From Heterotrichella gracilis (Eukaryota > Sar > Xanthophyceae > Tribonematales > Xanthonemataceae), in contig JAULBX010028824.1 in assembly GCA_032358255.1 (NCBI GenBank), positions 124,001 to 188,000 of the forward strand: a stretch of DNA of 64,000 nucleotides. Direction: 5' to 3'. Under the pieces are notes generated by a model that made no database searches, was not told the DNA's origin, and saw only the letters and a program-made list of their open reading frames with translations. Made by a program: the position numbers and the translations under genes. Below are positions 10,644 to 63,969 of the stretch, in pieces. How positions within the stretch are numbered: the first letter of the stretch is position 1; each line of letters starts with the position of its first letter.

Positions 10644-10767
10644 TGCAATGTTTGTATTTCACATTACCCAAAATTTGTGGTGCGTCCCACCGTGCAATGG
10701 TTAAAAGAACAAGGCTGGTTCAGTTTGGAAAGTAACTCATTGGGCTGCTTCCATTGTCCCCAATGGG

Positions 10768-10830
10768 CATACATTTCCATTTTTATGGCATACATTTCCA
10801 TTTTTATGGCATATATTTCCAATTTTAGGA
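10768..10830. repeat. Three tandem 21-base units
   Basis: Two exact copies of a unit beginning CATACATTTCC are followed by a third copy with a few changes. The repeat falls in the probable 3' untranslated region of the 8036 gene. Confidence 0.95.
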
Positions 10831-14200: not shown

Positions 14201-14813
14201 ACCTCTATGTTCTTCCACCCAGCTTGTTTGAGGTGTGGTATTGCCCTCACAACAGCGGTCATGAACCTGTACACGGTTCAGGGTTTAGGGTTTAGGGCTT
14301 AGGGCTTAGGTAGGAATACAGTGGTTTCGAGGGGTTGGATAACAGAGTGGCCACGGCATGTACCGAGAACAGCAGCAAGCAGTGGGTGCCTATATATGCT
14401 TGTCGAATGGTGTGCAGTGCTTTCAAAGTGCGAAATAGGTAGAATGTTCTCCGAGCCCATGCATGCATATGTGTGCGAGCTTACGAGAGCTTGTACGCCC
14501 GGTGCCTGCAGTGGTCGATGCACGACGCATTCTTGGCCGCTTCCACGAAGCAAGAGCTGTTAGCCATGCTGTTGCAAGCCTTTGAGACCAGGTGCAGACA
14601 CTCATCTCGCTTTGCAAAGTTATCCAGGTCTACGTCACAGCATCGATGAACCAGGACGGCGATCTTTGCTGCCTTAGTTTGTGGTTCCTGCCTCCAGTAT
14701 CGAATGCTGAGCTTATAGGGCCACTGTTTACTTCTCTTGCTCCTAGAGGCAGCTGTTGAAGGAAAGCGGAAAGCACAGCTAGCAACCAGGATGAGGATGA
14801 AGTGGTTTACCAT
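11225..14813 (-). CDS. Secretory-pathway GT-B type glycosyltransferase
   Basis: Eight exons (14485-14813, 13981-14266, 13516-13673, 13276-13344, 12819-12951, 12450-12617, 11698-11892, 11225-11374) join in phase into 495 residues. The ATG at 14813 starts a hydrophobic signal peptide (FILILVASCAF). A Cys-rich luminal segment follows, then GEAGDRL, DTLDGS and a Tyr-rich region. The C-terminal nucleotide-sugar-binding fold contains SPYGAGEWSHKDFEAML then AGCVVVKP, as in glycosyltransferase 1-type C-terminal domains (Glyco_trans_1_2-like). The final helix is amphipathic. Function is inferred: transfer of a sugar to an acceptor in the ER or Golgi. Donor and acceptor cannot be read from the sequence. 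The intron 14267-14484 opens with TTTAGGG-like repeats next to its splice acceptor. Confidence 0.86.
14277..14310. repeat. Degenerate telomere-like TTTAGGG run
   Basis: Five consecutive seven-base units of the form TTCAGGG, TTTAGGG or CTTAGGG lie about ten bases inside the first intron of the glycosyltransferase, beside its splice acceptor. The unit matches the plant/Chlorella telomere repeat but the copies are imperfect. Confidence 0.85.
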
Positions 14814-31052: not shown

Positions 31053-34000
31053 TCAGAACAGGTTGAACAGGTCCTCCAGCCCCTTCTTGGCTGCCTCCAG
31101 GTCCTCCTCTGGCTGATCCTCCAGCTCTGGCGCTGCCATTTGATGCAGCTGTATCCCTAGCTCCTCGGCAATGCGCAGCAGCTCCCCCACTTGCTCAGGC
31201 GCAACCAGTGTCGTGATGGTGCCTGCAGCAGATGACACAGGTACAGTGAGCAAGGCATGGCGTGCACTCCGCACCTGCTGACGGGAGCTAGTTTCTATTT
31301 CAGCTGTATTGTACAACGCTCAAGAGCCATTGCGTCTCCAGGGATCGGATCAGCCTGAGGCACACTGGCACCACCATCAAGGTCATGCTAGGGTTGCACC
31401 CCCCAGAGCCAACCTGTGCGCACCTTGCACTGGTGAGCCAATTCGCCCCGCCCGCCCCGCCCTGTGCAGGTAGTCTGCAACATCATTTGGCACATCCAGG
31501 TTGTACACGTGGCTGACCGCAGGCAGGTCCAGCCCACGCGCGGCAGCAGGAGTGGCCAGCAGCAGCGTGGTCTTGTTGTCCCGGAAAGAGTGCAGGGCCT
31601 GGAGTAGGGTTAGGTCACCATCAGGGTTAACGCCCGTGTGCTATGGTCAAATACTTTCATGTTGATGTAGCCGTGGGTAAAAAAAGCCATGCTTTGACAC
31701 AGCATGCAGATTGTGATGGAATGCAGGCACCTGGGCACCACCGATGCTCCAACAATGCATCTTGTAAACGCCAAGCCAAGATAATAAAAGACGGTAATCC
31801 AATAAATCACCACGCCCCATCAAACTGCTGCGCACATGAAACTGCACAGCCCGGACACCTGGCAGCACCATGGACAACTACACTTTCCCGTTGTTACCCA
31901 CCTTGATCGGCTCCTCCCCCCCTGGGAGCAGCACAGAAATTTTGTGATCCCCCCATAGCACGTTGCGCAGTGGCGAGGTCATTTGGCGCGCCTCGTCCTC
32001 GCTGCGAGCAAACACCATCACCCGCGCAGGGGCGCTGTCATCTCCCTGCCTGCACAGGTGGCATACAGGGGTGAGGGAAAGCGCCGGCTGCTGTGCAACC
32101 ACCGCATTGTCCACAACCATGTTTAACAGTGTTTCTGCCTAGGTATGCACTAGGATGCGTTCGCTGGTGAGCAAGGGCTATCGGAGTGCAATCGCAATGA
32201 TGCAGCGGCATAGCTATCTAGCAGCAGGGCTTTCACAGCAGCACAGGCAGGACACCCCACGGCATGGGCATAGGCACTCCTCGTCTACAGTCAAAGCCTT
32301 TGCCTTTGCCCTAGCTAGCCACATTCTCATCCAATAACCCTTCAGAAGGGTGCATTTGGCATATATTGTAATGGATATCATTGCAGTGCAGAACATATGC
32401 ACATGAACCAGTTCGCATGAACTTGCGATGATCCAGCATCGTTCCGCCACCACCACTCACTCTTTGAGGTCCTGGCGCAGCTGCCGAGCCAGTGCGGCTA
32501 GCCGGTGGAAGTCATCGACCACGATGTAGCGGTTCTCAAGGCCAGAGGGGACCTGCAGGGGGGAGTGACAGTGGCGATGATATTGCCCGCACTATGCCCA
32601 TAGGCTGCATGATGCGCTCTGGAGGCAGCTTTATTGTGGTTTACCATCAGAATCCTCTTATCTGGGTGGCATTCAACAGGTCGCCAGTGCATGGTAATTG
32701 TCAGCAATAACTTCCATGCATGTGACCAAGTTAGTGGATGTAGTTGCATGGTGCAATATTCCCACAAGCAATCCAGTGACCAGTGGCGCAGAAATTGAAG
32801 CACATCCCAACGGATCAAAGCACTGTGCATGCCCTTGTGCCAAAGGCCTGCGCAAAAAACGCAGCCAGGATAAATGCATTGCCCTGAGTTCTAATTACCT
32901 AAGGGGCTCAAAAAAGCACGCTCCGTACCTGCAGAGCATCGCCAACAGCAATCCTGATTGGGTCTCGTAGCCAGCCCCTGCTGACTGCGGTCTCCAGCAG
33001 TGCATCTCCTGTGGTGGCACCGATAAACCCTATTACAGGTTTTTGCGCTTGCTTACAGGCAGCCTCCATAATTATCTCCATAGCATCCCCATGCTCCTGC
33101 ATACCAAGCAGCATACGAGTAAAACATATCTGATGGATTATTCACAGTGTTGATGCAGGAAGACAAATGATCTTTTGCGTAATGCATAAGCCCTCCTAAT
33201 TAGTGCTCACAGAGGCAAAACCATGATCACATCCATCCAACGATTTTCCATACACTGTAACAATTTGCTGCCGGAACTTCACATGTAATGAAAAAGGCCC
33301 GAATGGGAATTGGAGCACATATGACTTGAGCTTGAGCAACAGGATGACTCATAAATGGCAGCACAAGCCAACCCCCCATATTGAACTGCCTCCATGCATA
33401 CAACGCTTGTACATCGGCACACAAGTCACTTAATGTTCAACGGCCCCATGCGCATTTTTGCACAAGGCACACAATCCACAGGGCGCAATACCCCATGCAC
33501 CTCCCATGCCACCAAGCACTGGACAGTACCAATGCCCACCTTGAAGCACGCGTCCACCTCGTCTATCATCACCCCCTTGCAGTGGCTCATCAGCGGCAGC
33601 GCCATGGGCTCCATCAGCACCTCAACCAGGGCCTCCGGGGTGGCCACCACCACATGCGTCTCAGCCAGGTAGCTTTGGTTCTTGGCCAGAATGACCTCCT
33701 CCTTTTGAAGGAGGCCACGCACCTGAGGATGTGGCAGATTTCTATAAAACTCCATTCATAGCACCATAACTTGTGACAAGAATCATTCCTTTGGAGTGAA
33801 GGCATGCAGCACCCTTGGTGGGCGGCGTTTGAGCCATGGCGTTCATGTTTGCAGAGTATGGGACTGGTAGGAATGGAGTGCAGGCACCCCTCACGTGCAT
33901 GCAAATTGGAGCCGCTGCTGGCCAGTGACCACCTTGCTGGTTCACACATGTTTATGCCTCTAAGAATTCCCATACACGAGTTGTGTGCCCCTGAGATTTC

Positions 34001-35364
34001 CCATACACGAGTTGTGTGTATGTATGGACTGTGTGTGTCTACGGGACCGTGCATTTGTATGGTGGGCTGTGCTGCATGCACGGTCGTACCTTAATCCCCC
34101 GGGGCCCGTTGTAGTTGTACATGTTGCCAGCGGCGCCGGGTATGCCTGCGTTCACGCTGCCTCCGAACAGGCGGTAGATGAGCATGACCACTTGCACCCC
34201 TAGCTCCCTGGTGGGGACGATTATCACCCCCTGCGGCCCCTGCACCAGTGGACACATGGATGACATCCGTGCGGATCATGCCCTGTAATGCCGCTCCAAA
34301 AAATCATAATTTAGAAGTTCAGCATGACTGTACACAGTGATTCTGTTTAACGCAGAGTCTGACGGCGCTCACTAGGCATTAGGACACGCCATGCCTTGCT
34401 AATCCCACGTTGAATGCATGACAACACCTTTTAATCGCACAAATCCTGACCTCTACCAACTCACCACGTGCCTGGCTTAAGACATCATAAAAATCAACCT
34501 TTGAGCCATACTGTGCAAGGGAGATGCCTCACCTTGAGGTCATCTGGGTACAAGTCCGGAGGGTAGTCCAGGATAGAGAGCAGCGGAATAAGAAAGGCTA
34601 GCGTCTTCCCAGAGCCTGTCTGTGACTTGATGATGACGTCGTTCATCTCCTCAATGAGGGGTGCGGTGCGCCGCTGGACCTCTGCAGGTGGGAGCGCAGT
34701 GCAGTGGTGGGTGCACGCAGGCAGACAGCATGCCAACATGGGTATGGGCGTGCATGGACAAGAAAAGCACTACCTGGCAAGAGGAATAGACTGCAAGTAC
34801 GCTGTGACATTTTAGGCTCCCAGCGCAACACAGAAACACCCAATGCAGCAGACATGCCACCCTGGCCTTGGGTGGCATAGTGCTTAGTTCTTGGAGTGAC
34901 TACAGTGAGACCACGCAATCCAAGGTCCTACCTGTGGGAAGCAAGTACCCCAGCTTATCTGCTCGTTCTGCCAGCCATGGCGGTACGCCCAGGTCTAACC
35001 AGTTGTTTGGCAAGCTGAGGTCTTGGGCCCCCACAGCCTGCCTCAGCTGGTCCCGCACTGCTGCTGCCAAACCATAGTCTTCGGCTGCGATGGCTTTGTT
35101 CAATGCCGTTTGCAGCTGGTTGGCGTCCAGACCCACGAGGCTCCCGCTTGTTGAAGGCTCATCGTCACTGCTGGCCTGTATGTGGTGGAGCCGCTGGCCA
35201 CTCGAATGCTGTGAGGTGTGTGGCCACCGCCTCGAAGGGTTTGCTTTCCATGCTTGCCGTACAGAAGCGCACTGTAAAGAGTGCGGAAGCCTGGCTTGGG
35301 GCGGCTTCGCTTGGAGTGATTGGCGGGTGCACGCCAATGCCGCCCGGGCATGCATTGCATGCAT
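31053..35364 (-). CDS. RH58: Chloroplast DEAD-box RNA helicase, RH58-like, with UVR motif
   Basis: Nine exons (34932-35364, 34533-34681, 34090-34239, 33540-33722, 32929-33096, 32461-32552, 31902-32049, 31424-31598, 31053-31222) give 555 residues. Residues 1-~60 are basic and look like a plastid transit peptide. A UVR-type helical motif follows (LQTALNKAIAAEDYGLAAAVR). Helicase motifs: GYLLPTEVQ, SQTGSGKT (I), PTRELGVQV (Ia), ATPEALVEVL, DEVD in place of DEAD (II), GATTGD (III region), VMVFARS (IV), AARGLDLP (V), HRAGRAGR (VI). DEVD and the overall order match plant RH58. The enzyme unwinds or remodels RNA using ATP; its targets are unknown. All introns are GT-AG and in phase. Confidence 0.9.
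33967..34018. repeat. Tandem 31-base duplication in a helicase intron
   Basis: A 21-base core beginning TTCCCATACACGAG occurs twice with a 31-base period, in the intron between the helicase exons 34090-34239 and 33540-33722. Confidence 0.9.
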
Positions 35365-42210: not shown

Positions 42211-45200
42211 CTACTCAGATCCTCCCACACTGTCACCCTCATCCCCCGAACCCATGTCAAAATCGAAGTCAAAAGCCATGCCAGCGCCACCACCCTCCCC
42301 ATCACCAGACGCCTCTTGATCCCCATCACCGTCCCCATCATCCCCACTCCCTTCCTCCTCCTCTTCCTCCCCCTCTTCCTCCCCTTCCTCTTCCTCTTCC
42401 TCTTCCTCTTCCTCCCCTTCCTCCTCGCTCCCTTCCTCCAGCGCATCTGCCAGCTCCTCCTCCAGCGCCCTCCCCTCAGCATCGTCATCCGACGCCTCCC
42501 CTTCACTCCCCTCGTCTTCCGAGCTGCCTTGCGTGTACCCACCCGCATCCCCACCTCCAGGACTGCCTTCCAAATCCCCAACTGTACTCCCCAACCCACC
42601 TCCACCCAGTGATACCTCGGCAGCGGGGACTACACCAGCAGACCCGGTGCCCCCCCCAGCATCCACCGCCGCAGCCGCCACCGCCCCGCTGGCGGGGTAG
42701 CTGGCCTGCACACCAACAATCAAGGCCCTGGGCTGCTCTGTGCTGCCACCTGGCTCCAGCTTCTGGCGCTTGGCGGGCGTGTCTGGCTCCAAGGGCTGGA
42801 CCGCAAAGGCCCACACGTGCGTGATGGAGGTAGGGGTCTCGTCGATGGCGGCATCCAGCGGGGCGGTCAGCAGGCTTTGGAGGCTTTCTTTCTGCTTCAC
42901 GGGCGGCTGCAGGCAGGCAGCAGAGTGAAGCAAGCTCCAGGTATAGCATGCATGCATTGGGCATGGCGCCAGTTTCAGTGGAAAATAAACATCTTCCTAT
43001 AACTTTTTTATACCATGCATGGCCGTATAGCAGGGTGCCTCCCAGCTGTGTCATCCCCCTACACCATAGTTTGGCAACAACACCCTGCCCACAAGGCCTA
43101 CAGCTAGCATGGCCCTCCTCTGCTCTCCTCGCCCATGCCTCAACCAACACCCCCGTGTATGCTCCAATTTTGTTCAATTTAAATTCAATTTTGGTTAATC
43201 CCTTCCGCATTGGAAGAGGCTCAGTAGCACACCCCGCAAGGCGCACCTGCCACGGCGCGCGCCCCGCCCCCGCCGCCGCTGCCGCCGCCAGCGCCTCCTC
43301 GGGAATGGGCAGCTCCGCGGCATGCTGCAGGGTGGCGGGCACCGCCATGGTCCCTGCCTGCAGCCTGTGCTTCACGGAGGAGTGGTAGCGCTTCTTGACC
43401 TGCTGCGCGGCGCGCCAGGGGAGCAGGGTCTGCACCGACGCCCTGTGGGAGGGGAGGGAACCGGGCATTAGGAATCAGGGTCTGCACCAATGCCCAGTGG
43501 GACGGGGAGGGAACGGGGGATCAGGGATAAGGGTATGTACTCATGCCCTGTGCGAGGGGGAGGGACCCGTGGGTCGATGCGCGGCGAGGCTGGAATGGCA
43601 AGCGCATGCATGCCTCCTGCAGAGGTTACAAGCTGAGCATTACTTGAAGATCTGGACCTTCAATCGCAGCAGGGAGTTGGGCAGAAAAACCCAAGCCGTG
43701 CTGGACATACAATGCGTCACGTGTAGCCCTACTATTACATGCCAGCCACCCGCACACACACCACCCCCGCAACAGCGCAACCCATGCATACCATTTTGCG
43801 CCAAACACGTAGTGTCCATACGCAATCACGGTGTCCTCCACTTCAGTGAACTTGCGCGACGCCATGGCTTGATAGGTGGCAGGCAACGGCGCGGGCGAGG
43901 GGTTGGCGGCTGTGGGCGCAGGGGCCGCCACGGGAGGGGTGGGCGGGTGCGCAGCGGTGGGGGGTGCTGAGGAGGCAGGCATCCCCTGCAGCAACGGACG
44001 CGCAGCTAATTTACCTCATGCGTGTATAGCTTGTCGTTTTGCAACATAGTTTCGCTCAAGCAGGGGCTGGCACGATGCCTTGACGGCAATCGCTTCTGGC
44101 ATGTACACTTTACTACAACCAGCCCTGAACAGCTGCCCTGGATCGGGCAGCCACTTCCCTTCCCCCGTGGCCATCATGCCTGCCATGGATGTAGACAATG
44201 CCCATAAATGGATAAAGCAATGGGTGTGATGCAGTAGGGCACACCGTGGACGAGGCCGCTGGCGGCCGCATGGCGGGGACGGGCTGTGGCCCATTCCCCC
44301 TTGGCGCCGCACCCGCCCCACTTAGGTGCGACACAGGCAATGACGTCTGTGACGGCCGCACAGCCTGGCCCCCGTGCTGGTTAAACGCCACATGAGGGCT
44401 GCTGGTGTGCAACGCCAGTGGCTGTGAGGTGGCGGCATGCGTGGCGGCGCCACTTGGCGCGCTCCCAGGCACTGCCCCCGCCCGGAAGAAGTGGTGCTCG
44501 TAGTCCGCAAGGAACTTTGCATATGCGCCCTTGATGGTGTTGCTTGCGCTGGTGAGGGAGGAGGGGACCTCCATCTGTGGGCACAGTGGCGAGCAGCTTT
44601 CAGTAAACATACCCTACAATTTAAGCTATATTTAAAGTTAGATGTAATGGGACAGCCTAATGAGCCTAAATTGGACTCTACCCCACGACTGTCTCAAAAA
44701 CTAATGTACAAATAAGATGTAATTTTGATTTTGTTTGTACTCAAAGTATTCTCTACGATTTATACGATTTATATTTTGTGTCAAATACAACATTTAACTA
44801 GATTTGATCTGCTGCAGTAAATTACCTTGTCGCCGATGGAGCGCCAGTGCTTTGAGTCGTTCACCGCCCGCATGCCGCCCCTCGTGGTGACCTCGCTGTA
44901 TAGCTGATGCAGGTTCATCTTCTTGCCTGTGAGGGTGCAAAGGGGCTGCTTGGAACATGCAGGAGGATGTGATTGCAGCACTGAATCAAGCGGGTTTACA
45001 TGCCTAACATTGAAGGCAAATGATGCGTAAGGTTGAGGGCGTCATGGGCCATGCTGAGAGTACAGCTGCAGCCAAAGATACACGTGTGCCAATGGGATGC
45101 ATCCGCCAGTAGTGGCCACACGCCATGTGCTCCTGCCGTTCACAACCCGCTGCCTGGTGCCACCCTAAATAATCCTCTGAAACAAAAATCATATGATATA

Positions 45201-47149
45201 GATAGACCACTGAGTCGGAAGGACTTCAATACCACATTATAGTCCTTCTGGCTGGGTGCCCAGACTTCCCATGCATTGACCACTACGCCCGGCCACCCAC
45301 CTGCCAGCACCGGTACCCGCCACCCCGTGCCCCCCTCCACCGTCGCGCCCTTGGTCTGCATCAAAAACTCCCCCAGGTGCTGCATGAACTGCTGCTCGGT
45401 CGCCTTGTGCACGTCGATGGGGGCAAGGTTGAGGTGCACGCCGGGCTGCGGCCTGGCCCCCGGGAACGGCGAAGTGGCTGGGGATGAAGCGGCGATCCCC
45501 TGGGACGCCGAATGCGGGCCGGGCACGGCTGGCGTGCTGGCTGGCGGGAACGGCGCAGGCGCCGAATGCTGCACCTGCGTGTGCGCATGTGCATGCGCCA
45601 GCTGTGCCGCTTGCAGCTGCGCCAACTGTTGTTGGGTGAGCTGCTGGAGGGCCGCTTGTTGGAGCTGTGCTGCCGCGGCATGCTTCTGCATCATGTTGAC
45701 GGGCGCAAGGAGTTGATGCGCCCCCGCCCGCTGTGCCGCTTCGGCGAGCTGCGCCTGGAGGGCGCTGAGCGTGGCCGCAGTGGCGGCGCTCGCCTGGGCA
45801 AAGGCCGGCGGCGGCTGCAGCGCCAGCGGCACCGGCCCCGAGGGCTGCGGCAGCGCGGGCGGGCCGGTGGGTTGCGCTGGTTTTTGCGTGTGCGGCGTGT
45901 GCAGCCCTTCTTTGGAGAGGTGGTTCAGCACGTGCTGCGCCAGGCGGGGGTAGTGGAGGGCCAGCAGGCACAGCGCCACCTGCTTGCTGACGGTGTGGTT
46001 GCCGGGGGTGCATACTGTGGTGCCGATGCACAGCTTGAGCTGTGCTTGGATGAGCGGGAACCCGGTCGCGTCCCTGATGGCCTGCTCAATCGTCGACCTG
46101 GGGCAGGGACATGAAATGCATTGGGCTAAAGCAGAGTGCAGATCAGGTTAATTTCTGCTGGAAATTCGGCGCAGATTGGTTATCGGCATGGCGATCACCA
46201 TGTGGCCTTGAGAATTGTAACAATGCATAAAATGCGCGCTGCGCACCGTATATTCTGGCCATTGTGCGTGGAGGAGGCCAGCGTGGCGATAGTTTCCATC
46301 CACTTCTGTTTGTGGACATTGGCGAGAATGGCGGTGTTAGCGGGTGGCACTAGGAGGGTGTCCCTGGGTGACAGCGCAGTGTCGATGATGTAATCTGGGG
46401 GCTTCTTTTGCTGCTGCAGGTAGGCAAGCACAAGAAAATGCGACTGCAAGCGGCGGGTGCAGGTGCATCGTCAGCGCTCGGTGGGCATGAGGGGGTTGGT
46501 GAGGCATGTGTCAGTGACCCAGAGTCACAGGCATTTAGTTGCCTAGTGGGCAGTATATTCTGCAGCTCCAGTGTCACTAGGTCTGAATTGATGCAAATGA
46601 AATTGGCAGCACTTTGCGGTGTACAAGGTGGAAGGGAGCAGTACTGAGGTCTGCCTGCTGTGGGTAATGGTGCATGGCATTGCTTTTTGTCATATTGAGT
46701 TGATTGAAAATTACCCCGCCAAGACTATGGAAGTGTCATGACACTTGCAGCAGCTGAGGCGGTCGAGGAGAGCCCCGCCACTCAAGAGCACACGCCTGGC
46801 CCAATGCATGTATACACATGGGTGCATGCAGTGTGTACCCACCCACCTGTAACCTTGCGAGGCTGAACACGTCAAACACAGTACCGGAAGGCCTGCATTG
46901 GCATAAAATATTCAGTGTAATTCTTGTCCATTCAGCGCACCGACAACAGGCAGGAGCTGCGAACGGGGCCTGGTTGCGTACGTACGTATTTGAACTGCTA
47001 GCGTCAGCTGCAGCGTGTGGAGCCAGGTAGAGCAGTTGGTTCTGCCCATTGTGCAGGATAACGAATGGCTGCGCTCCTGCTGGCACCGAGGTCGAAGCCG
47101 CTACCGCTTGCTGGTTAGGGTGCAGGCCTCGTTGATACGGCGGGTCCAT
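42211..47149 (-). CDS. ARID and Myb/SANT domain protein with acidic tail
   Basis: Nine exons (46986-47149, 46847-46892, 46247-46413, 45301-46097, 44826-44926, 44245-44574, 43792-43985, 43247-43442, 42211-42906) give 896 residues. The ATG at 47149 (MDPPYQRGLHPNQQ) is the most protein-like start. A Gln/Ala/Pro-rich region precedes an ARID DNA-binding domain: FMQHLGEFLMQTKG, KKMNLHQLYSEVTTRGGM, HWRSIGDK, KFLADYEHHFF. A Myb/SANT-like repeat follows: KFTEVEDTVIAYGHYVFGAKW, WRAAQQVKKRYHSSVKHR. The C-terminal 231 residues end in a long Glu/Asp run and FDFDFDMGSGDEGD. ARID plus SANT architecture indicates a chromatin or transcription factor in the nucleus; target genes are unknown. The intron after 43442 carries tandem copies of its exon boundary. 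Confidence 0.88.
42351..42430 (-). repeat. Simple repeat encoding poly-glutamate
   Basis: CTTCC/CTCCTC-type repeats on the plus strand encode the long Glu run near the C-terminus of the ARID protein. Such runs change length easily between strains. Confidence 0.9.
43424..43580. repeat. Three tandem ~52-base copies of an exon-intron boundary
   Basis: Units start at 43424, 43476 and 43529. The first covers the true splice acceptor at 43443 and the start of the ARID gene exon 43247-43442; the other two lie in the intron. Shared words include CAGGGTCTGCACC and GGGGAGGGAA. Confidence 0.9.
45077..45134 (-). repeat. Dispersed intronic repeat, copy 2 (inverted)
   Basis: The reverse complement reads AGCACATGGCGTGTGGCC, then GGCGGATGCATCCCA, matching the copy at 23090-23148. 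It lies in an intron of the ARID gene. Confidence 0.75.
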
Positions 47150-47853
47150 CCAATGCCTAATCAGCATGCATGTGGAGTACAATATGTCGTGGCATGCAGT
47201 TCCTCTGGGTCAAGTATCCACCTAGTGCTTCGAGTTGTTGACTGGAAAAGGAGGCTAGGATGGGTTCTGTCCGTTGCGTACCAGTGAGTTGGCCACACGC
47301 AGCAAGCGAACTGCTTTCAAGGTCGCAGACTTCAGTGAGTTTTCAAGTTGGTGCTGGCAGGGGGAAATTGCAAAGCGACGGGGAGGCAAATTAAATTTTA
47401 ATTTGTTTTTTGTACAACATTACTTTTAAGTTTCACATTCATGTGCATGTACCAGTCCACATTCAGATTGCACACCGCTGGCCCAGGGTCCTATATGTGG
47501 ACACACCCTTGATGTATAGCATAAATTGCTGTAAATGGTCAGTCAGTGCACCAAAACAGCCAGCTGGGGTTTGCGTGTGTTGTCAAGGCGGGTTGTTAAA
47601 GAGGATCCTGCACACAGTTTGTCATTCAGCAGCCATGCGGGCTACTCATCCAATGTCAGCATTGGTCCATGAAGCATGCAGCCCCCGATATGAACCCTAA
47701 ACATTCCCGGCTGCATGTGACAGTCCAACTCGCCAAGGCTGCCTTCCCTCGAAGCAGTGCCTGGATCCAGCATCGCGTTCCACACAAACCAAATCCACTT
47801 CCTCTCCGCAACAGCCCCCTGACCAAAACCCCCATCCACACCCGCCTCCCATC
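47150..47853. other. Intergenic region: ARID promoter and RPF2 3' flank
   Basis: Both neighbours read leftward. This 704-base interval should hold the ARID promoter and the RPF2 3' untranslated region. I see no coding exon or clear motif. Confidence 0.55.
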
Positions 47854-50851
47854 TCACTCCTGCGCAGCGACGCCCGCGCTCTTTGCCTTCTTGGCCGCCG
47901 CCGCCTCCTGGCGCCCCTCGCGCCGCTCCCGCTTGAGCCCCTTCATCTTGTTCAGCGCCATGGAGTCCACCTCCTGGCGCGGCATGTAGATGCGGCCCAC
48001 CTTGCCGTCAAGCACGTCGGTGCCCACGTTCTTGACCTGCGGGGAGGGTAATGGGGGTGCTCGTGGGGGTGCACTACAAATTCTGGTGGCCACCATAAAT
48101 CGGTGCCTCTCAAGGGGCACTCCTGTGCAGATCTTTTGTGTGCACAGTCGCCTTGCATGTGGGCTAGACTGTGCATGGTGCAATGGTGCATGCCGCCGCA
48201 CCAACGCGTGCGTCGCGCATGCTTTGGGGCTGCATGCCTGTGCATGCTAGGAGAAGCTGGCCCTAGGCAACGAGGTCACACAGCATTGCTGGTGCGTGTG
48301 AAGCCACACCACCAACATCACCCACCAGGGGCCACCAGTTCCGCATTTCAACCAGACTTGACCCCATGACAAATAACCCCAATGAACCCCTCCCATGACC
48401 ACCCACCTCCATAAATCCACCCTTGTAGTAACTACAATTGCATCGCAGGCGCGCACGAGAAGCACCCGATCGCGGCTGCCTCCCTGCGCCACCCCGTCCA
48501 TAACCCCAAAACCCTAACTCATCTGACATCTGATCTAACTCATCTGGCCTAACTCATCTGACCCCTTAAACCTAGATGTGCTGACCACATACCTTCTTGG
48601 GGTCCACCTTTGGCTTCTTCATGGCTTCCTGCTCCAGGTCCGAGGGAGGGGCGCGCGTGCGGCGCAGGGTGAGGTCCATGCTGGGGCCCATCTCGGTCAG
48701 CTCAGCCCGAGGAACCTGGTGATAGGGTAAACGGCTTAGGGTTTTGGGGTACAGGGTTTAAGGTTTAGGGTCAGTTCCAGGCTAGGGCGCATCTCAATGC
48801 GCCCAGCCTAGGGGGCCTGGTGATGGGGTGCAGGGCTTAGGGTTTACGGCACGGGGTTTAGGGTTCAGGGTCAGGTCGAATCTGTGGCTTAGGGTTTATG
48901 GTGCTGAGTGTGTGGCTGTGTGTGCAGTCAACAGGCAGCCATGTGTCTGTGGCGAGATTGCCAGCTGGGACTGGGCCAAGGTGCCGATATGGGCTCACCC
49001 CTTGATGACCCATGCATCACATGGGCCACGCGTCATGCATGTGATGCAGTTTGCGATGTGCACGTGGCTGACTGTGGCCTCCACATGCGATGATTGTCAT
49101 TTGCGTAATGCAGTTTCAACCCACTTCACTGTATGGCACGTTGGTTCATGCCGTGCTGCATGCAGGACATACCTTGGTCCCAGATTTCTTGAACTTGATG
49201 GCATACTGCCTGAAGAGCAGCTTGCCATCGACAGCAGTCACAAAGATTGCCCTGTCCACGCCCTGCATGCAAAACCATGTGCAATAATGTTTATCACTAC
49301 TTACTATCAGTAGAACTTGGTGCATTCGCAACGCCCGGTGCCCGTTGGGAGTGCTAGGATGCATGCCATGCTGGATGCACATGCCTGCAAAAATACCCAT
49401 AGAACACGCCGGTACCTGGGATCTAGGGTAAACACGATGACTATCACTCACCGCCAGGTTAATTGCATCCACCTCCATTCCCCGGAACAAGTCCAGCAGC
49501 ATGCTCTTGGCAAGCTTGAAGTCTGGGTTGTTTTCAAACAGCTCGCCGGCAAAGGCCATGCAGGGCTGCAGGTGAGAGCGGGTGGCGTCAGTGGCGATAC
49601 CAAACCCTTGTCTGCATGCAGGTGTGCCACAGCCCACGAGCATGGAAGGAGGAAAACATTACCAATTAAGGAAAAGCACCGTTTGCCCAATCCACAAGCA
49701 TCGATGTACAATCTATGCCCAGCTGGTGGTGCCAGAGGGCATTTGCACAGGCCATATGCATGGAAGGAACGGAAATCTGGCAGTGTTGTACCATGCACTC
49801 TGTGTGAGACAGTTTTGCAGGGCGCCATACCCTGCTTGCCAATTAAGACTCAGGCTGATAGGGTTTGAGGGGCTTAGGGCTTGTGATCCCGTTGTCCAAC
49901 CCGGACGAGGCTGTTTAGGGTTTAGGGTTCATCATGCCGCTGTCCAATCGTCGGGAGGCTGTCTAGGCTTTAGGGCTGGGGTATCTCACCTTGTTGCCCA
50001 GTTGTGACGAGGCTGCCGCGCTCTTGAAGTGCTGGATGCCCTTGCACTGGTCCACGCCCACCTCCAGCAGGTCGTACAACCGGAAGTCAAACATGCGCCC
50101 TAGCACCAGGTTGTGCGGCCGCTTCTTGCTGTGCGTGGCCAGGATGAACTGGCTGCAGTCGGTTTTTCTGCAGTTGTGCTCCAGGAACGTCTCGCCACCC
50201 ACCTCAAAGGGCCGCACGTCGTCGTTCTTCCGGGAGTATTTTATGCTCTCCGACTGGAAAAATGAAAATGGCATACATTCAGGGGATGGGGCAGGGGATG
50301 GGCAGGATGTTCCCTCAGGAAGGGTTGCAATAGGAGCTTACGCAATATGCAGTGTGGGACTGGCTGTGACTCTATTTTTGGTGGTCGCAGTGCTAGCCTC
50401 CGCCAAGGCCCTGTGCAATGCCTTGTAAGTGCCCTGTGCCACGTGCACGACGCGTGCATTGCAGCCCATTGTGACTGTCACTGTATTGATGGGCACACAC
50501 CTATCCTCAGACGTATTTTGTTATGCATTGTGCAAGTGCTCTGTGCAAGCACCAGCCATGCATGCATGCATGGCAAACTCACCCCCTTAAGCTTGTGGAT
50601 ATCTGTGAGTACATCCTTCACCACCTGGCTCGTCTTGTTCCCATAGAGCAGAAGGACCTTTTTAGGGTTCTCAACCTGCACACAGGGTCCAGTAGTCAGC
50701 ACGTTCATCTCCTTGCCGCTGACATATGGTGGGCTGTACAGTGCGTAAAAATGCATGCACGCACGATTTTTGGAGCTTTCTTCTCGAGGACGCGCTTTCC
50801 CTTTTTCGTTTTTGCTGTTACTATCTTGTGTTGTTGCTTCTTCTCAGCCAT
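47854..50851 (-). CDS. RPF2: Ribosome biogenesis factor RPF2 (Brix domain)
   Basis: Seven exons (50765-50851, 50583-50675, 49990-50253, 49452-49565, 49173-49262, 48593-48715, 47854-48036) give 317 residues, near the size of human and yeast RPF2. RPF2 with RRS1 brings 5S RNP to pre-60S ribosomes in the nucleolus. Brix-family segments are intact: ENPKKVLLLYGNKTSQ, DDVRPFE, THSKKRPHNLVLGRMFDFRLYD, FAGELFENNPDFKLAKSM, LLDLFRGMEVDAINL, LLFRQYAIKFKKSGT, RAELTEMGPSMDLTLRR. Both ends are Lys-rich, as in the family. Two of its introns contain degenerate tandem copies of an adjacent exon boundary together with TTTAGGG-like runs, and the intron 48037-48592 has a ~20-base tandem repeat at 48515-48568. 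Confidence 0.96.
48515..48568. repeat. Short tandem CTAACTCATCTG repeat
   Basis: Three imperfect copies of a unit built on CTAACTCATCTG lie in the intron between the last two RPF2 exons. Confidence 0.85.
48668..48860. repeat. Tandem copy of an RPF2 exon start inside its intron
   Basis: Bases 48668-48760, which span the start of exon 48593-48715 and its splice acceptor, recur in degenerate form at 48768-48860. Both copies contain CCTGGTGAT at the splice junction and end in TTTAGGG-like sequence. On the minus strand the copy keeps an ATCACCAG acceptor but has an in-frame TAG three codons in. Confidence 0.88.
48837..48900. repeat. Degenerate TTTAGGG-like cluster
   Basis: Several imperfect units (CTTAGGG, TTTAGGG, TTCAGGG) continue from the exon-edge duplication into the RPF2 intron. 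Confidence 0.75.
49891..50020. repeat. Tandem copies of an RPF2 exon end inside its intron
   Basis: The end of exon 49990-50253 (GTTGCCCAGTTGTGACGAGG on the plus strand) has degenerate copies at about 49891-49921 and 49935-49965, each with the words GTCCAA and GAGGCTGT and each followed by TTTAGGG-like sequence. Confidence 0.75.
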
Positions 50852-51932
50852 CGCACTGGGGTGCTGCCGTTCAGCGCTTGGTTGAACCTATCGTCGGTCG
50901 TTTCGTCAGCAGAAATGCATGCATATACAGGGCGGCGGCCACAGTACCCCGAATTACGCTTCCAAGGCAAGCGAGACCACGATACCCAGAAAATACGTAT
51001 GGGTGAAGTATTTACCAACAATGAATAGAGTACTATGCAGCTTGTGGTAGCAGGTAGCCTGACAATAGGGAACCAGGTGGCCGAAACAGCGGCATGCACA
51101 ACCCAAAAACGGCGTAACAACTCGAAAGTTGTGCAAGTAAGGGCGTATGAAAGCCAAGCAGTGAAATGAGCAAGGTTCAAACGCTACGGGTCGTCAAGTG
51201 TGCTTCTGCTGAAGTGCTGCTGAGTGCTATTAGTGCTGCTGCGCGCTGGGCAGGCTATACTCGTGGGTGGGTGTTCCCGCCAAAACTGGTGTGGGACCGG
51301 GGAAGGGGGTTTGGGGCCGGCCGGCCAGCCAGAATATTAATTCACACGTGGCAACCATACACTGTCAGTCTGCTTCCACCTTTACATCTTACGGCATATT
51401 TTAAATCTTTGGAGGGCTGCACAACGGTACACAGCCGGTTGGTGTACCATCCCAAGGGTTTATTGTATTTGGCGCTGCTACCAAGGACAGATCCCAAACT
51501 CCAACAGCGCAACACCAACAGGACATCGAGGTTCGTGACTAAAGTCTTTCGGTGACAAAGTACTCCATAATTCAGCACTACTCCTACTCCAGCAATAAAA
51601 CTTGTTTGTTGGCACCCCTGGCGTATACCCATGTTTGCAAACAGTAGTACTTCTGTTCATAACCCAAGATGATAGGCAAATAAAATAACTTCTGTCTCCT
51701 GATACCGCATCATATGATGCTCAAGACTGACACCATACACTCAACACATAACCTGTTTAGAATTAACATGAGAGCATTCCGCTCAGTGGCACACAAGCAC
51801 CAAGCTGAACCCAGCCAGGCTGGCCAGCTAGCAAATACATACAGAAAATGGAACTGCTAATCCATCCACACACGCAACAGGGTGCCCATCCAACCCAGAT
51901 ATTGCTGCAGCGTGCGTCAAGCACTTCCCCGC
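50852..51932. other. Intergenic region: RPF2 promoter and acyl-CoA synthetase 3' flank
   Basis: Both neighbours read leftward. A plus-strand open frame at 51166-51555 (129 codons, ATG start) has no recognisable domain and no partner exons. TTACA at 51382-51386 could be the TGTAA signal of the synthetase, 547 bases past its stop. Confidence 0.5.
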
Positions 51933-54900
51933 TCAGTCCCTGGGTGGTGGTGCGTTTGCCTTGAGCTCTGCATACAGCTTGTCCACCTGGGCCTGGTAGT
52001 GCTTGAGCAGCTGTGGCCTCTTGAGCTTGAAGGTAGGCGTGAGCAGGTCGTTCTCCACGCCAAAGTGCTCAGACTCCAGGTAGATGGCCTTCATCAGCTC
52101 GAAACCCTGAAGGGATGTGGAGCAAGGGTTTAATTTTTATCAAATAAAATAAAATCCCCCACTGCAAGGCTCACTGTGCTCACACCCTTCAAAGGTTGTT
52201 GAGGCAAGGGTTCAGGGATTAGGGTATGCTCAGGTAAAATTTCTGCAAGAATTGTAGTGCACCAGCAAAAACATCTTCTCCACAGAGGTATGCCATGGTG
52301 TTTTGCTGACAGGAGCATGCATGCATCGCATCAACCCCATGAGGTCCACTATACTGTTGCATTTATATGGTGTGTGGGGGGGACGCGTATGCATGCTTCA
52401 TGTACTCATTTCCAGATGTGCATAGAGAGCCATTATTAGAGCAGTCTGCGCATAACAAGCAGAAAACTCATTTCCATGCACGACCCTGCGGCCTATGCAC
52501 ATGGCAAACCACTCCCTCCCCTCAACCCCTTCCCCATCATTCTCACCTTGAGCTTCTGCCCCTTGCCAGTCTTGGTGAGCTCGCCCAGCACGTACTGGTT
52601 GGCCTTGGGGGATTTGCACACCTCGGCGTACGTCCCTGGGACCCCGTTGCTCTTGGCCCACGCCATGATTTTGTCCTCAAAGGGCACCACCACGCCCACC
52701 AGTTGGCTCTCAAAGCTGTTGCCATACACCCACAGCTGCTCCACGATGGTGTCCATCTTGTACACCGACTCAATCTTCTCCACGGCAATGTACTCGCCTG
52801 CAGGCAGGCAAAGGTGTAGGGTAGGATAGCTGGAGAGGGGTGGGGTGGTGGGGGGGGGTTAACCCCTGAAGGGCACCCCGCCCCTTGTACGAGTGTGGTA
52901 TGGTAGGGGCAGATATAGGGCGGGCAAGTTTGCCAACTTTGCCATGGGTGTTAATGCCGTGTCTTTGGCAAGTTGATAATAATATATGTTTTGCCGTTTA
53001 CATTCTGTGGGATTGTTCTCACCAGGTGCGGCATGCCTGGCACATGTTGGGGTGATAATGCATTGGCATGCACATGCGGTGCAAGCTTGGCGGCAGCCGC
53101 TGAAGCTGGGCGGAGCTGACCATGCTACATCCCCCCCATCTGCTTAGCGACCCAGTCGCTGCCAGCACAGAAGCCCACATGCACGTGCCCAAAAGAAGCT
53201 ACGGCAGTCTATTTCCCCTCCCCTCCCCCCGGCACCTTCGCCCACTACGCCCCCATGCGCAACACCATCCGGCCCCGCACCTTGCGACAGCTTGAAGATG
53301 TTCTTCTTCCTGTCAACAATGCGCAGCGCACCGCTGGGCGTCAGCTCACCCACGTCGCCCGTGTGGAACCAGCCGTCCGCCTCCAGCACCTGGGGAAATA
53401 TGCATTGTTATTATCATTATGACAAGCGCATGTTTTTAAATGATAAGTTTTATTCATGAATTTAATTCAAGGTGAAAATGAGGTCATTGTGTTCGGCCTG
53501 GGGCCTTCCTAATGTAGAAGTAGAGGGGGTGAGAGTGATCTACAAGAAACTGCAAGAAGCAGATGAGCCAAAGCACAGAAGGGAACAGGCACTACTAATT
53601 GCTACTTGCAATTTCCAACAGAACGAGGGCAGGTTGTATTATCACATACAGCAGTACCTCCGCGGTCTTGTCGTCCGCCTTGTAGTAGCCCTTGAACATC
53701 TGCGGGGAGCGCACCACCACCTCCCCGCGGGGAGGATCAGCGGTGGGGTCGTAGTTCATCTCCGGCACAGCCTCCAGCCGGAACTCAGTGCAGGGCAGGG
53801 GGGGACCCACGGTGGCCGTTTGGTCCTGTACGTGTAGCAAAGCGAGGTGATGGGAGGAATTCACAGCAGCGCCGTCACTGCGGCGCAGATGAGCACCCGG
53901 GAAAAGTTGTACACAACTTGATCCTTGGCATAATAACTTGGTGTAGTAATATAATATTGATGATAATGAAAATGATAATAATATATATATATGATAGGTA
54001 TATTATCATCATATTATTATGGTATGATAATCGGCACACGATTGAGCATGCCGTAATCAATCGCCGGCTCATTGATTGCGGCATGCTTCTAAAGCAGTCC
54101 GTGGCATTGGTACCATGGTTTACGGTGCGCAGTGCCCTACCCATTTCTCGGGGACGGCGATGAAGGAGCCTGCGCATGTCTCTGTGAGGCCATAGCCCTG
54201 CACCACCGGGCAGCACATGGCCACCTTGAGGAACTCCTCGGTGTGCTTGGCAAGGGGGGCGCCACCCGACACGATCAGGCGCACCTGGCCACCCAGGCGC
54301 GCCTTGATCTTGCTGAACACAAGCCTGTCGAAGAAGGGTGAGGCCTGTGCACAGAAAATGTGAAGGGAGATGAGCATGTGCATGTGGCATGTTCACAAGT
54401 GCCAGGACCACACTGCTTGGCGCCGCATGTGCAAGACAGTCTGGTGATCTGGCTGTTGCTGGAATGCATATACTGACTATGGACATGTAGTGTGGATGAA
54501 TGCGTTGGCACATGATGTTGCCGCACTGGAGCTGTCCATCCGCATGCAACACATTTGAATTCCAGCAGATGTTCAGTGGCAAGGGTAATGATAGCGTGGG
54601 CGGAACCCTTGCGCCTACTGGCATACTTGCATCAAGAAGGATCTCATTGCCAGAGGTTTAGATGGGACTGGCACCTGGCAGCGGCTTTCGAAGTAGAAGA
54701 GTGCATGGTGTGTGGCCACGAGAGGTAGATGCATCCCACCTGGGTCATGCATGTACATGTCACTATTAGGGTTGCAGTGCCTGGCCGCGCCCTACCCCAC
54801 CTTGCTTGACTTCAAGCCCTGCTTGAGGAAGTGGGTCTTGCGGTTGTAGGCGTAGTTGTAGAGCGTCTTGGTGATGAACCCTGCCCCGCCCATCTTGGCG

Positions 54901-56888
54901 TTCACCGCGGTGTAGATGCGGTCAAAGATGCGCGGCACACCAATGAACAGGGTGGGCTTCAGCGCACCGATGTCGTCCACCAGCCCCGTAATCGATCCGC
55001 GCCAGAAGCCGATCCTGGCCCCAAGGGCAATGAACATCTCCTCGCCCACCCTGCAGTATGCGTGGGGAGCTTGTTCAGGGTTTAGGGTTGTGGCAAACCA
55101 AATTTGTGCCCCAGCAGGACTTGGCTTATTTAGAATGCACCTATGCATTAATTTGGTGCGGAGATCGCAGGTCCAGACCGAGTGCTTTGCGGTGGTATGA
55201 CCCAGTGGGCGTCTGTATAGTGGCGGCTAAAAGCAGCTCCTTTTGGACCTCAGAGCCTGGCCAAGGTAGACAAGTTCTTGGCAAGACTCGTCATGACGAT
55301 CACCATTCCCTGCTTTACCCGTGCATCCCATATATTTGAGGTTCCTCGTAATCTTAATAGCACTGCACACCTGTCGAAAATATGCGCCAGTGGCAGGTAG
55401 GACATGTATCTGTCGTTGTCGTCCAAGTCCTCGTCCACCACGTTGTTGACAAAGGTCCTCAGGGAGGCGATGGTGGACAGCACAGCATTGTGGGTGAGCA
55501 GCACGCCCTGGTGTGGAACAAGGAAAGGTGTCAGTAAGAGCATTCCCCCAGGTACCCTGCCAAGCGTAGCATATTGGGTGAGATACAGACGCCAACAGGT
55601 CTGTCAGGTAAGGATACCGTGGCGTTGCTACATGGTGTGCATGATAGGACATTGGTGCCGTGGTGGGACAACACATTAGGGTCGCCAGGGGTGCCAGGGG
55701 TGTGCATGGTGATGCACAAGATGGCGCACAGGTGGCATATAGGGCAATACCTTGGGGTCGCCAGTGGTGCCACTGGTGTACATGATGGTGCACAGGTCGT
55801 CAGCGGCTGCGGGCACGGGTGGCGCTGGGTTGGCCTTGCCGAGGTCAGAGAACGCGGCCCAGGTGTACACAGTGATGCCCAGCCCCTTCACAGTCTGCGG
55901 GGACCAAGCAGGCTGTCAGATCACAGCTACTCGCAAAGCACGCAGATCGAGCATAGGGAGGTTTAGAAAGGGGTGGGGCTATTCAAGCAGAGGCGAGCGT
56001 CTACACCCAACTTGGCTTCCACTACTTATATAACAGTACTTTTCTTGACAACCATACAGTAAGTGGCCATGCACTGGCACAGGGATGGGGGTCACGCCTA
56101 GTTTTGAGTACTGAGCCACTGCCACTCACCTCCACCACAGCCGCATCGGCTTTCCCCCACACCACCACGGTCTTGACCTGAGAGGCCACCTTGGGCAGAG
56201 CTTTGGCAAGCTCTGCGAGCTTGTCAGCCGCAGCAAACACCAGCGTTGCCTCCGAGTGGTTGATAATATACTCGATGGCGTTGTCACCAAGGGAGTCGTA
56301 CACTGGCACGCAGTACACGGACATCCTGTTGCATGCCTGCAGATGGCATCAGGTGACTGATCTGAAAACAGGTGCACCAGCGCAAGTCGCCGTGGGTGCA
56401 ACCACACACACGTCTCGTTGGGTTATTGCACAGTGCAGCAATACCCGCAGGAAAAGGGGTGGGTGTGTCTGCAATGGCTGATAAGGGTGTACAAAATGCA
56501 CAGTGACAAAATGCACTGTGCACACCTGCATTGCCATCATCCACTCGGGGCTGTTTGTGCCGTACACTCCTGCGCGGCCCGTGGCCTTCAAACCAACGTA
56601 CGCCATGGCAGAGCCTATCTTGTCCACGATCTCCGAGGTCTGCTTGTAGGTGAGCCACTCATAGTCCCCAACCTTGCCATCAACCTCTGGGCGTGTGCCC
56701 AGGCAGGGGTTGTTTGGGAACTTCTTCACACTGTTCTGGAACATATCGTACAGCGAGGTGGCATCTTGCATCTGTGGGAACCCATCCTTGGCCAACACGC
56801 TCCTGTAGGTGGGTCCCGCAGCGGGCTTGTCTGCAGTGGCTGGAACGGCATCCGCCACCTTCAGCAGGAACTCATTGCTCACAGGCAT
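51933..56888 (-). CDS. LACS: Long-chain acyl-CoA synthetase
   Basis: Ten exons (56526-56888, 56130-56336, 55751-55894, 55371-55507, 54801-55050, 54141-54344, 53658-53825, 53281-53389, 52547-52797, 51933-52106) give 668 residues, the usual LACS length. The enzyme activates fatty acids to acyl-CoA using ATP. Motifs: [12 protein letters not shown] joined to GVLLTHNAV across the third intron (AMP-binding P-loop), [64 protein letters not shown]. No N-terminal membrane segment or obvious targeting peptide is present, and the C-terminus (NAPPPRD) has no PTS1 signal. Fatty-acid preference cannot be read from sequence. The third intron contains degenerate copies of the end of exon 55751-55894; another intron holds a 17-base-arm hairpin. 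Confidence 0.96.
54045..54087. repeat. Inverted repeat (hairpin) in an acyl-CoA synthetase intron
   Basis: Arms 54045-54061 and 54071-54087 match at 16 of 17 positions around a nine-base loop. Just to the left, 53945-54025, is a very AT-rich tract of ATTAT and ATAT units. Confidence 0.9.
54699..54755 (+). repeat. Dispersed intronic repeat, copy 3
   Basis: GAGTGCATGGTGTGTGGCC and GATGCATCCCACC match the copies at 23090-23148 and 45077-45134 (inverted). It lies in an acyl-CoA synthetase intron. Confidence 0.75.
55077..55088. repeat. TTTAGGG-like unit near a splice acceptor
   Basis: CAGGGTTTAGGG lies about 27 bases from the splice acceptor of exon 54801-55050. Confidence 0.6.
55619..55810. repeat. 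Tandem copies of a LACS exon end inside its intron
   Basis: The end of exon 55751-55894 (GGGGTCGCCAGTGGTGCC) recurs at 55675-55740 (AGGGTCGCCAGGGGTGCC) and, more weakly, at about 55619-55660. On the minus strand the nearer copy still reads [11 protein letters not shown], a decayed version of the real [11 protein letters not shown]. Confidence 0.85.
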
Positions 56889-62484: not shown

Positions 62485-63969
62485 TCACCGGCTGCTTGCA
62501 CCATGTGAAGCATGGCTCATCAGCCCATTTGCCTGCTGCTGCAAAAGCTTTTGGAGCATCCCCTTGATCTCATCAAGATCGCCTTGCATGTTTTCCAAAG
62601 TGATTGCAGCCTCATCATCCTTGTCAATCAGCTTGTCAGACTCCGACAGACCCATGTTAGCCCAAGATTTGTCAATGCGCACAGTCTCAACGCGGTCATT
62701 GTTCACCTGCACAAACCGGACCAGTGCTGAAAAGGGACCAGGGGAGTGCTGACAACGAACCAGTGTTGGAATGGGACCAAGGGTTACAAGGGTGCTTTAT
62801 CTATTGTAACTGATTGATGAGGGCACCTGGTAACCCAGACAAATGGAGCTTGCAGCACATCATTTAGGCATGGCATGCCCACTGCATTCTCAAACTGCAG
62901 TAGTTCTTGACGGTGACCTCAAAAATTGCAAACAATTGCAGACGTATGCGTATGCAACCATGGTGACGTAATCTTCACCAGCCAAGGTTCTCTGCTGCCG
63001 TCACGTGGGGCTTCCCCTACTCTAACAGTGCACAGGACGCAATCACGCTGTGATGGCAATGCATGGATGTGCAGCAGATGCCAACCCACGTGCACCAGGT
63101 CCACCCCCTCCAGGAAACCCCTCCAGGATCGCCCCAGCTACGCCCCTGCAGACGTGCCTATAATGACTTACCCTCAGGATGTGTACATAGGCTGGATACC
63201 ACTGGCGGAACAATGTGCGCTCCAGCCAGGGTGGAAAGGTGGCCTCCAGCTCATCGATGACGGTTGCTTTGCTGTACAAGAACCTGAGACCTGCGTTCTG
63301 TGTCACCTGGAGCAAACAAAATTCCGTTCACACTTCTGTGCTTTTTTAGTGCAGAAAGCTGACGACATATGCTTTCTTACGCACTGCGCTTCAGATGCAA
63401 AATCTAATGCCGACCGTTACCGTAACGGTGGCGTGACCCATTATGCAATTTTCAAGTCACCAGCATGTTATTTGGACAGGAGGGTGCTAATGACTATTAG
63501 CCCTAGCCGTAGTGGGATATTAGCGTTGTACGAAGACGTAAAATTAGCGCGAACATAGTCGTAAACAGTTCCCTATCGATCGATTTGACTTTGGATAGGC
63601 TTAATTTTGCTAATTCGGACGTCGAGCGGTGAATTAGCGCAATTAGCGGAGTCAATGAAAAGTTAATTTTGGGCGCGGAATTACCACTGCGGCTACGGCT
63701 AATGGCACAACTGTACATTATCAATTTTTTGCTGACATGTCACCCCGCATCATGGCGTGATGCATTGCACGAGTGCTTACCTTGTCAAGGGAGTTTGTGA
63801 GCAGCGCAATGAGGAGGTTAAGCAGCACGCCACTCATCACAAACATGAAGAGAAGGAGGAAGATGATGCTGACACTGGGGTTGTGATTGGTGAAGAAGAC
63901 CTCGCTTTCAAAGTTGCCGGACAGCATGGCCACCACCGTCACCAGGGAGTGTATCCACGTCTTGAACTC
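62485..63969 (-). CDS. TRP-like cation channel, C-terminal part (5' end beyond window)
   Basis: Three exons are visible: 63781-63969, 63172-63306 and 62485-62706, about 181 residues; the rest lies right of the window. The first holds a pore-like segment (HSLVTVVAMLSGNFES) and a last transmembrane helix (IIFLLLFMFVMSGVLLNLL) ending in IALLTNSLDKV, the post-S6 pattern of TRP/ion-transport channels. A cytoplasmic helix follows (KATVIDELEATF). The C-terminus is an acidic coiled coil (LENMQGDLDEIKGMLQKLLQ). The channel likely passes cations across a membrane; which TRP subfamily, and which membrane, cannot be settled from this fragment. An extra small exon between the second and third is possible. 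The intron 63307-63780 contains the inverted-repeat element described separately. Confidence 0.85.
63496..63703. mobile_element. Possible small terminal-inverted-repeat element
   Basis: The ends of this 208-base stretch are inverted repeats: 63496-63518 against 63681-63703, 19 of 23 positions matching (ATTAGCC, TAGCCG, AGTGG shared). The interior has several more ATTAGCG words in both orientations. It sits in an intron of the TRP-like gene. I see no clear target-site duplication, so a miniature transposon is possible but not proven. Confidence 0.4.

Follow-up and report, generated by a model that had tools for sequence, protein, structure and literature searches.

Telomere-type repeats and duplicated exon edges in introns of Heterotrichella gracilis

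Short runs of telomere repeat inside mammalian chromosomes are put in at double-strand breaks, according to the excerpts of two reports drawn on here (PMC2246262, PMC7215372). In the same excerpts, duplications at such insertions are a minority (6/130 rodent, 4/25 primate and 3/66 horse sites) and 31% of human interstitial telomere runs are found in introns, which equals the chance expectation. Young introns of Daphnia carry direct repeats of exon ends together with internal repeats, which the cited part of the study reads as traces of staggered breaks, and intron expansion by break repair was proposed (PMC4202315). Direct repeats near intron borders, with a mean of 11.4 bp, have likewise been read as break footprints in the abstract of a study that compared the two ends of an intron (PMC11782384). 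The abstract of a further report describes how CST-guided Pol alpha fill-in gives rise to small tandem duplications at breaks that have 3' overhangs (PMC8355091). In land plants, short motifs called telo boxes are concentrated in 5' regions and are less frequent in Arabidopsis introns, and an origin from telomerase acting at free 3' ends was proposed for them in the passages used here (PMC3022908). In this study, we characterize duplicated exon edges and telomere-type repeats in introns of the xanthophycean Heterotrichella gracilis, in a stretch of 64,000 nucleotides (the window, C629:124001-188000) and in further parts of the 68.5 Mb genome, which is assembled in 903 contigs.

As in the mammalian insertions, TTTAGGG, the telomere repeat of the organism itself, occurs in short runs inside chromosomes, and the putative target is duplicated at the presumed insertion point. 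Unlike what the mammalian excerpts describe, 13/20 runs in our follow-up set are flanked by repeats of 24-104 nt, introns are richer in runs than intergenic DNA is, and the duplicated target (T) is often an exon edge. The CST/Pol alpha duplications share the general form of duplicated break flanks, with no telomere insert in the abstract (PMC8355091), whereas the Daphnia exon repeats measure only 4-12 bp and the telomere repeat has 0 occurrences in the main text of that study (PMC4202315). Compared with the intron-border repeats (PMC11782384), a longer exon edge is copied here into the neighbouring intron. Telo boxes are likewise a telomere-type motif near genes (PMC3022908), but the runs observed here are concentrated in introns and have flanking duplicates. 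Intron gain by tandem duplication also involves a segment across an intron-exon boundary; there a new intron arose, whereas no clean in-register birth was found here. Introner elements are dispersed inserts with their own splice sites; the insert shared here is the telomere repeat only, where the genome-wide search covered the unit of case 1 (see below). Among the matches listed from the open literature, with subscription papers mostly outside its coverage, no title or abstract start dealt with telomere repeats accompanied by duplicated exon edges in introns. Target-duplicating telomere insertions in mammals and the growth of Daphnia introns through breaks have been published before; the telomere link to duplicated exon edges is what the present analysis adds.

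The window is eukaryotic and rich in introns. Using a self-trained gene finder, 44 genes with 387 introns bearing clean splice motifs were predicted ab initio in 247,865 bases. The original prediction held that in four cases within three genes of the window a unit starting in the exon and including the splice site is repeated outward into the intron, and that this may reflect a general process. For every exon edge, up to 60 bases were aligned to the neighbouring 250 bases of the intron to which it belongs and, for comparison, to other introns on the corresponding side; a boundary was kept if the exon measured at least 25 nt and the intron at least 60 nt (706/774). At a score of at least 30, the edge matched its own intron at 33/706 boundaries compared with 40/155,928 mismatched pairs (donors: 19/349 vs 17/76,820; acceptors: 14/357 vs 23/79,108). 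The true rate is thus about two orders of magnitude higher and the claim withstood the comparison. Reverse complements of the edges gave 0 donor and 2 acceptor matches at this score, while other introns of the same gene were matched at a rate like that of shuffled pairs. The 35 boundary matches at a score of at least 28 were distributed over L017, L019 and L020 (21 in 24 kb), C629 (12 in 184 kb) and L018 (2), with none in L014-L016. Introns with duplications were also longer (median 318.5 vs 227 nt, p 0.004), and generality was borne out within the sampled part of the genome, which amounts to 4% or less.

All four layouts could be recovered by local alignment, and each was scored against 2000 dinucleotide shuffles of the intron with strict and lenient settings (p values in this order). 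The genes concerned, all on the minus strand, are of ARID/Myb type, RPF2 and an AMP-binding long-chain acyl-CoA synthetase-like gene; Pfam matches were obtained for ARID, Brix (RPF2) and AMP-binding, with a Myb match under the Pfam cut-off. RPF2 and the ARID gene were fused in one gene model and separated by eye. Case 1 is a ca. 53 nt unit on the acceptor side of the ARID-type gene, with three copies in 43424-43581 (p 0.0020 / 0.0055). Copy 1 (43424-43475) spans the edge of predicted exon 43247-43442, the acceptor and the start of intron 43443-43791, and copies 2 and 3 (43476-43581) are intronic, with the acceptor dinucleotide gone in copy 2. Searched genome-wide, this unit occurs in a single place. 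In case 2, a ca. 100 nt unit at an RPF2 acceptor is present twice in 48666-48864 (p 0.0005 / 0.0005): the exonic copy (48666-48764) holds the edge of exon 48593-48715, the acceptor and the intron end, and the intronic copy follows at 48767-48864. A plus-strand TTTAGGG-like tract (48733-48771) lies between them, 4 and 1 nt from the masked-flank repeat, and more such tracts (48832-48871 and 48886-48902) extend past the copy. Case 3, at an RPF2 donor, comprises three weak copies in 49851-50022 (p 0.044 / 0.11), namely the exonic unit (49963-50022) at the donor edge of predicted exon 49990-50253 and two intronic copies (49851-49962) that match the exon poorly and have TTTAGGG-like tracts between them (49912-49931, another at 49964-49975). 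The RPF2 protein aligns to human and yeast RPF2, and its alignment to solved homologues continues across the junctions of cases 2 and 3. Case 4 joins the donor edge of acyl-CoA synthetase-like exon 55751-55894 (exonic copy 55742-55794) to an intronic copy at 55666-55718 that is without a strict telomere-like tract (p 0.0005 / 0.0005). The shared layout stands for cases 1, 2 and 4, which beat the shuffles and are solid, while case 3 is weak.

TTTAGGG is the telomere repeat of this organism, as six-unit runs begin within the first 10 bases of C70, C140, C526, C609, C717 and C770 with the G strand outward, as at telomeres. Six-unit runs are also seen at other places in the genome. Together with matches to GUN4, heme oxygenase and peroxidase, this telomere repeat would be in keeping with a photosynthetic alga or plant. 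Exact two-unit matches number 5,629 genome-wide compared with 5 for the reversed control, and exact three-unit matches (21-mers) 834 compared with 0. For the duplication and telomere work, a non-random sample of 292 kb was used (C629, which alone contributes 184 kb, and L014-L025), with 445 introns counted. TTTAGGG 10-mers occur 381 times in this sample, whereas none of 19 control repeats with equal composition exceeds 17. Per 10 kb, the density of TTTAGGG 10-mers is 25.9 in introns, 8.5 in intergenic DNA and 0.4 in coding sequence, untranslated regions being without annotation. Tracts were present in 26/64 introns with duplications and in 33/381 without, a difference that was also seen among introns of 250-600 nt (17/38 vs 13/151), and telomere-like sequence made up 4.9% of intronic bases in duplication zones compared with 0.5% elsewhere. 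In 30 of 81 duplicate pairs, a tract was located between, within or next to the copies; two of the 83 pairs described below had been left out for spacings above 300 nt. With telomere letters masked, the two flanks of a tract were direct repeats of each other in 36/118 tracts compared with 437/4461 positions of the same class in the same loci, whereas inverted repeats at that score numbered 0; one of 119 telomere-like stretches, close to a locus end, was omitted.

A follow-up test that needs no gene model was carried out on the first listed perfect three-unit match of each of 20 contigs (C2-C27), with 700 nt per site and sites drawn from about 100 listed of the 834 matches. Masked as before, direct-repeat flanks of 24-104 nt were found at 13/20 sites at score 28 compared with 98/4000 random positions, which were those of the earlier sample and mostly from duplicate-poor C629. 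The value is also far above the 522/4461 of same-class positions in tract-bearing loci. At score 32, direct flanks remained at 10/20 sites. Inverted flanks were found at none. The unit is therefore often T-(TTTAGGG)n-T, where T is commonly an exon edge with its splice site; the three parts follow each other without a gap in L034, L035 and L040. In at least 7/13 T copies (L028, L032, L038, L039, L040, L041 and L044) a donor- or acceptor-like site lies by coding-looking sequence, as judged by eye in unannotated DNA. The suspicion that TTTAGGG-like sequence is involved was right, given the 10-mer excess and the repeated flanks in both sets.

These units lie close to splice sites. Among the 31 distinct intronic tracts that have a T pair, there are 26 in which T extends into a predicted exon, where uniform placement would give 15.1 (p 6e-5), and the median distance of tracts to a splice site is 26 vs 61 nt. 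The distance between tract and T is at most 12 nt on both sides in only 8 of the 31 and on one side in 14. Orientation is biased as well, with the G strand pointing outward from the nearer exon in 72/105 tracts (p 0.0002), most strongly near acceptors; outside duplication zones the count is 39/62 (p 0.056). In the last fifth of introns, CCCTAAA is found in sense in 19/21 tracts. This bias could be due to tolerance by splicing. Judged by consensus, TTTAG|G is similar to an acceptor and CCCTAAAC to a branch point with pyrimidine tract.

A gapped search of the 292 kb, which replaced a first ungapped one and dropped low-complexity seeds, yielded 83 local direct-duplicate pairs with alignments of 16-105 columns. 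Exon edge-intron pairs exceed random placement (41 vs 25.8 expected), intergenic pairs fall below it (3 vs 13.3), and intron-internal pairs (20 vs 21.7), pairs with both copies at least partly labelled coding (18 vs 19.6) and mixed pairs (1 vs 2.6) are closer to it. The boundary excess for duplications as a whole is modest, part of it arising because the exon copy does not decay, and boundary preference is clearer for the tract-flanking pairs above. Inverted similarity is rare, with 7 tiles compared with 107 direct ones at a score of at least 36 (2847 tiles, which overlap and are not independent). Slippage or repair at TTTAGGG-like sequence had been proposed as a possible cause; the link to such sequence stood, but plain head-to-tail slippage as a full account is ruled out. 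Only 20/83 pairs are head-to-tail with at most 10 nt between copies, while the copies of the other 63 are spaced by more than 10 nt, often with a telomere-type tract between them, and one L020 pair has 62/62 identical bases around a 153-nt unduplicated spacer. Such near-identical copies are what may suggest that expansion is still ongoing, as had been predicted.

The 2-isopropylmalate synthase gene of L020 contains six listed pairs; a seventh was recognised in the sequence and also in a test of donor against acceptor regions. Two of its copies called as exons are insertions relative to a solved homologue. Some exon copies in L017, L020 and L022 are intact enough for an exon call, the SNF2-type gene of L017 being one example, and in-frame exon duplication may take place too. 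At 30 aligned splice sites (C629 and L017-L024), the intronic copy retains the dinucleotide in 25 compared with 20.5 expected if it decayed like the rest. There is therefore no sign of selection against decoy splice sites, an idea that we consider unsupported, and intronic copies could serve as alternative splice sites.

Based on these results, we consider it an evenly balanced proposition that introns are lengthened when DNA breaks within gene bodies, most visibly those at exon-intron borders, are repaired in a way that leaves a telomere-type insert and a duplicated target. A staggered break would leave T, some tens of bases including exon edge, splice site and intron start, on both ends, and filling in and joining of the ends would duplicate it. 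In many events a short telomere-repeat run would come to lie between the copies, giving T-(TTTAGGG)n-T, probably added during that event, either by telomerase or through captured telomeric DNA. The outer copy would still serve for coding and splicing, both the run and the inner copy would turn into intron and decay, and some sites would proceed to arrays of [T + run]n. A telomerase RNA-binding domain is encoded at C626. CST, too, serves telomeres. A more far-reaching proposal, that telomerase or captured telomeric DNA at staggered gene breaks is a main source from which introns gain sequence and is still active as such, we put forward tentatively and with somewhat more doubt than belief. Here, events would prefer exon-intron borders and duplicate the splice site, and the telomere repeats left behind would be splice-compatible, so that genes would survive the hit.

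Several observations weigh against break repair with telomere-type inserts. Duplicate density is very uneven, at 1.4 per 10 kb in C629, 0 in L014 and L016 and 6-15.5 in L017-L020 and L022; L025 also stands at 0. Strict tracts are missing within 60 nt of 51/81 pairs, and hidden telomere likeness in zones without them is borderline (45 zones, p 0.055). The polarity expected of telomerase priming is absent, with closer abutment on the expected side in 15 pairs, on the other in 14 and 2 ties (31 pairs, counted by eye), which therefore leaves room for captured telomeric DNA or fragile tracts. At 9/13 follow-up sites telomere-like tracts were also seen outside the T pair at a looser threshold, as expected from array growth or from pre-existing tracts. 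The outward decay of copies that had been predicted is no rule: the nearest copy scores higher than the farthest at 4 and lower at 7 of 11 boundaries elsewhere with at least two intronic copies, and in case 1 it is an impression only. The notion that the nearest copy is the youngest was dropped on these counts and on tract purity (9 for, 12 against). No clean in-register intron birth was found when donor and acceptor regions of 431 introns were compared (short and edge introns excluded). Similarity at a score of at least 32 was seen in 12/431 compared with 5/12,900 shuffled, and among the 14 best similarities listed just two were within 2 nt of register, in neighbouring L019 introns on either side of a predicted 3-nt exon. 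Birth in splice register (AGGT model) was discarded, there being nothing beyond what look like gene-model artefacts. Finally, insertion in one step is something that we infer.

Part of this evidence would fit an alternative in which the tracts came first, as fragile G-rich spots where breakage or slippage duplicates the flanks and builds [T + tract] arrays. Tracts outside the pair, arrays such as L039 and L040, the lack of telomerase polarity and the correlation of tract with duplicate density (Spearman 0.65, 31 tiles) all favor it. However, 4/13 follow-up sites show just one tract, bracketed by one T on either side and with no tract beyond the pair, which requires a copy crossing the tract, and the tracts would still need a source while repeats of equal composition are absent. 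We regard this order of events as rather unlikely, though a serious competitor. A reading in which errors of replication or repair simply produce tandem or near-tandem duplicates that introns tolerate, the telomere repeats being incidental, would account for the pairs lacking strict tracts, for the head-to-tail pairs and for the random-placement rate of intron-internal pairs. The roughly tenfold enrichment of tracts in duplication zones and the fact that a test starting from tracts found duplicates make it improbable.

The tracts might instead be retained as splicing or expression signals, in the manner of telo boxes, with duplicates a side effect. Their closeness to splice sites and an orientation that tracks intron position are in line with this, but flanking direct repeats would go unexplained and 386/445 introns are without a TTTAGGG 10-mer, which leaves it little credence. 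Least credible of all is an artefact of gene models or assembly. The models are ab initio, some copies were called exons (L017, L020 and L022), RPF2 was merged with its neighbour and more duplicates are found on shorter contigs; against this, the tract-centred test is independent of gene models and its sites are on contigs of 145-457 kb, copies differ by substitutions and small gaps, and real exons are backed by protein alignments.

Further repeats were observed in passing. A plus-strand TTTAGGG-like array lies in another predicted intron of the window (14275-14310), with no flanking repeat pair listed for it, and in L021:472-506 an intergenic head-to-head array of 35 nt runs from TTTAGGG units into CCCTAAA units, as if two telomere-bearing ends had been joined. 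Two tandem repeats of the window have a consensus without TTTAGGG, one of 31 nt x 2.1 (33955-34018) and one of 21 nt x 3.0 in predicted intergenic DNA (10766-10827). A near-tandem duplicate of ca. 38 nt (62707-62783) is wholly within an intron, and a CTCCTCTTCCTC-type repeat at 42347-42439, where the last coding exon of the ARID-type gene is predicted, encodes a run of acidic residues.

How introns come by additional sequence has long been asked, and few of the sources can be traced; here insert and duplicated exon edge can be read directly from the sequence. With 5,629 exact two-unit matches in one genome, rates, ages and splice effects become measurable. Break repair of the kind proposed here would tie telomere maintenance to gene structure.

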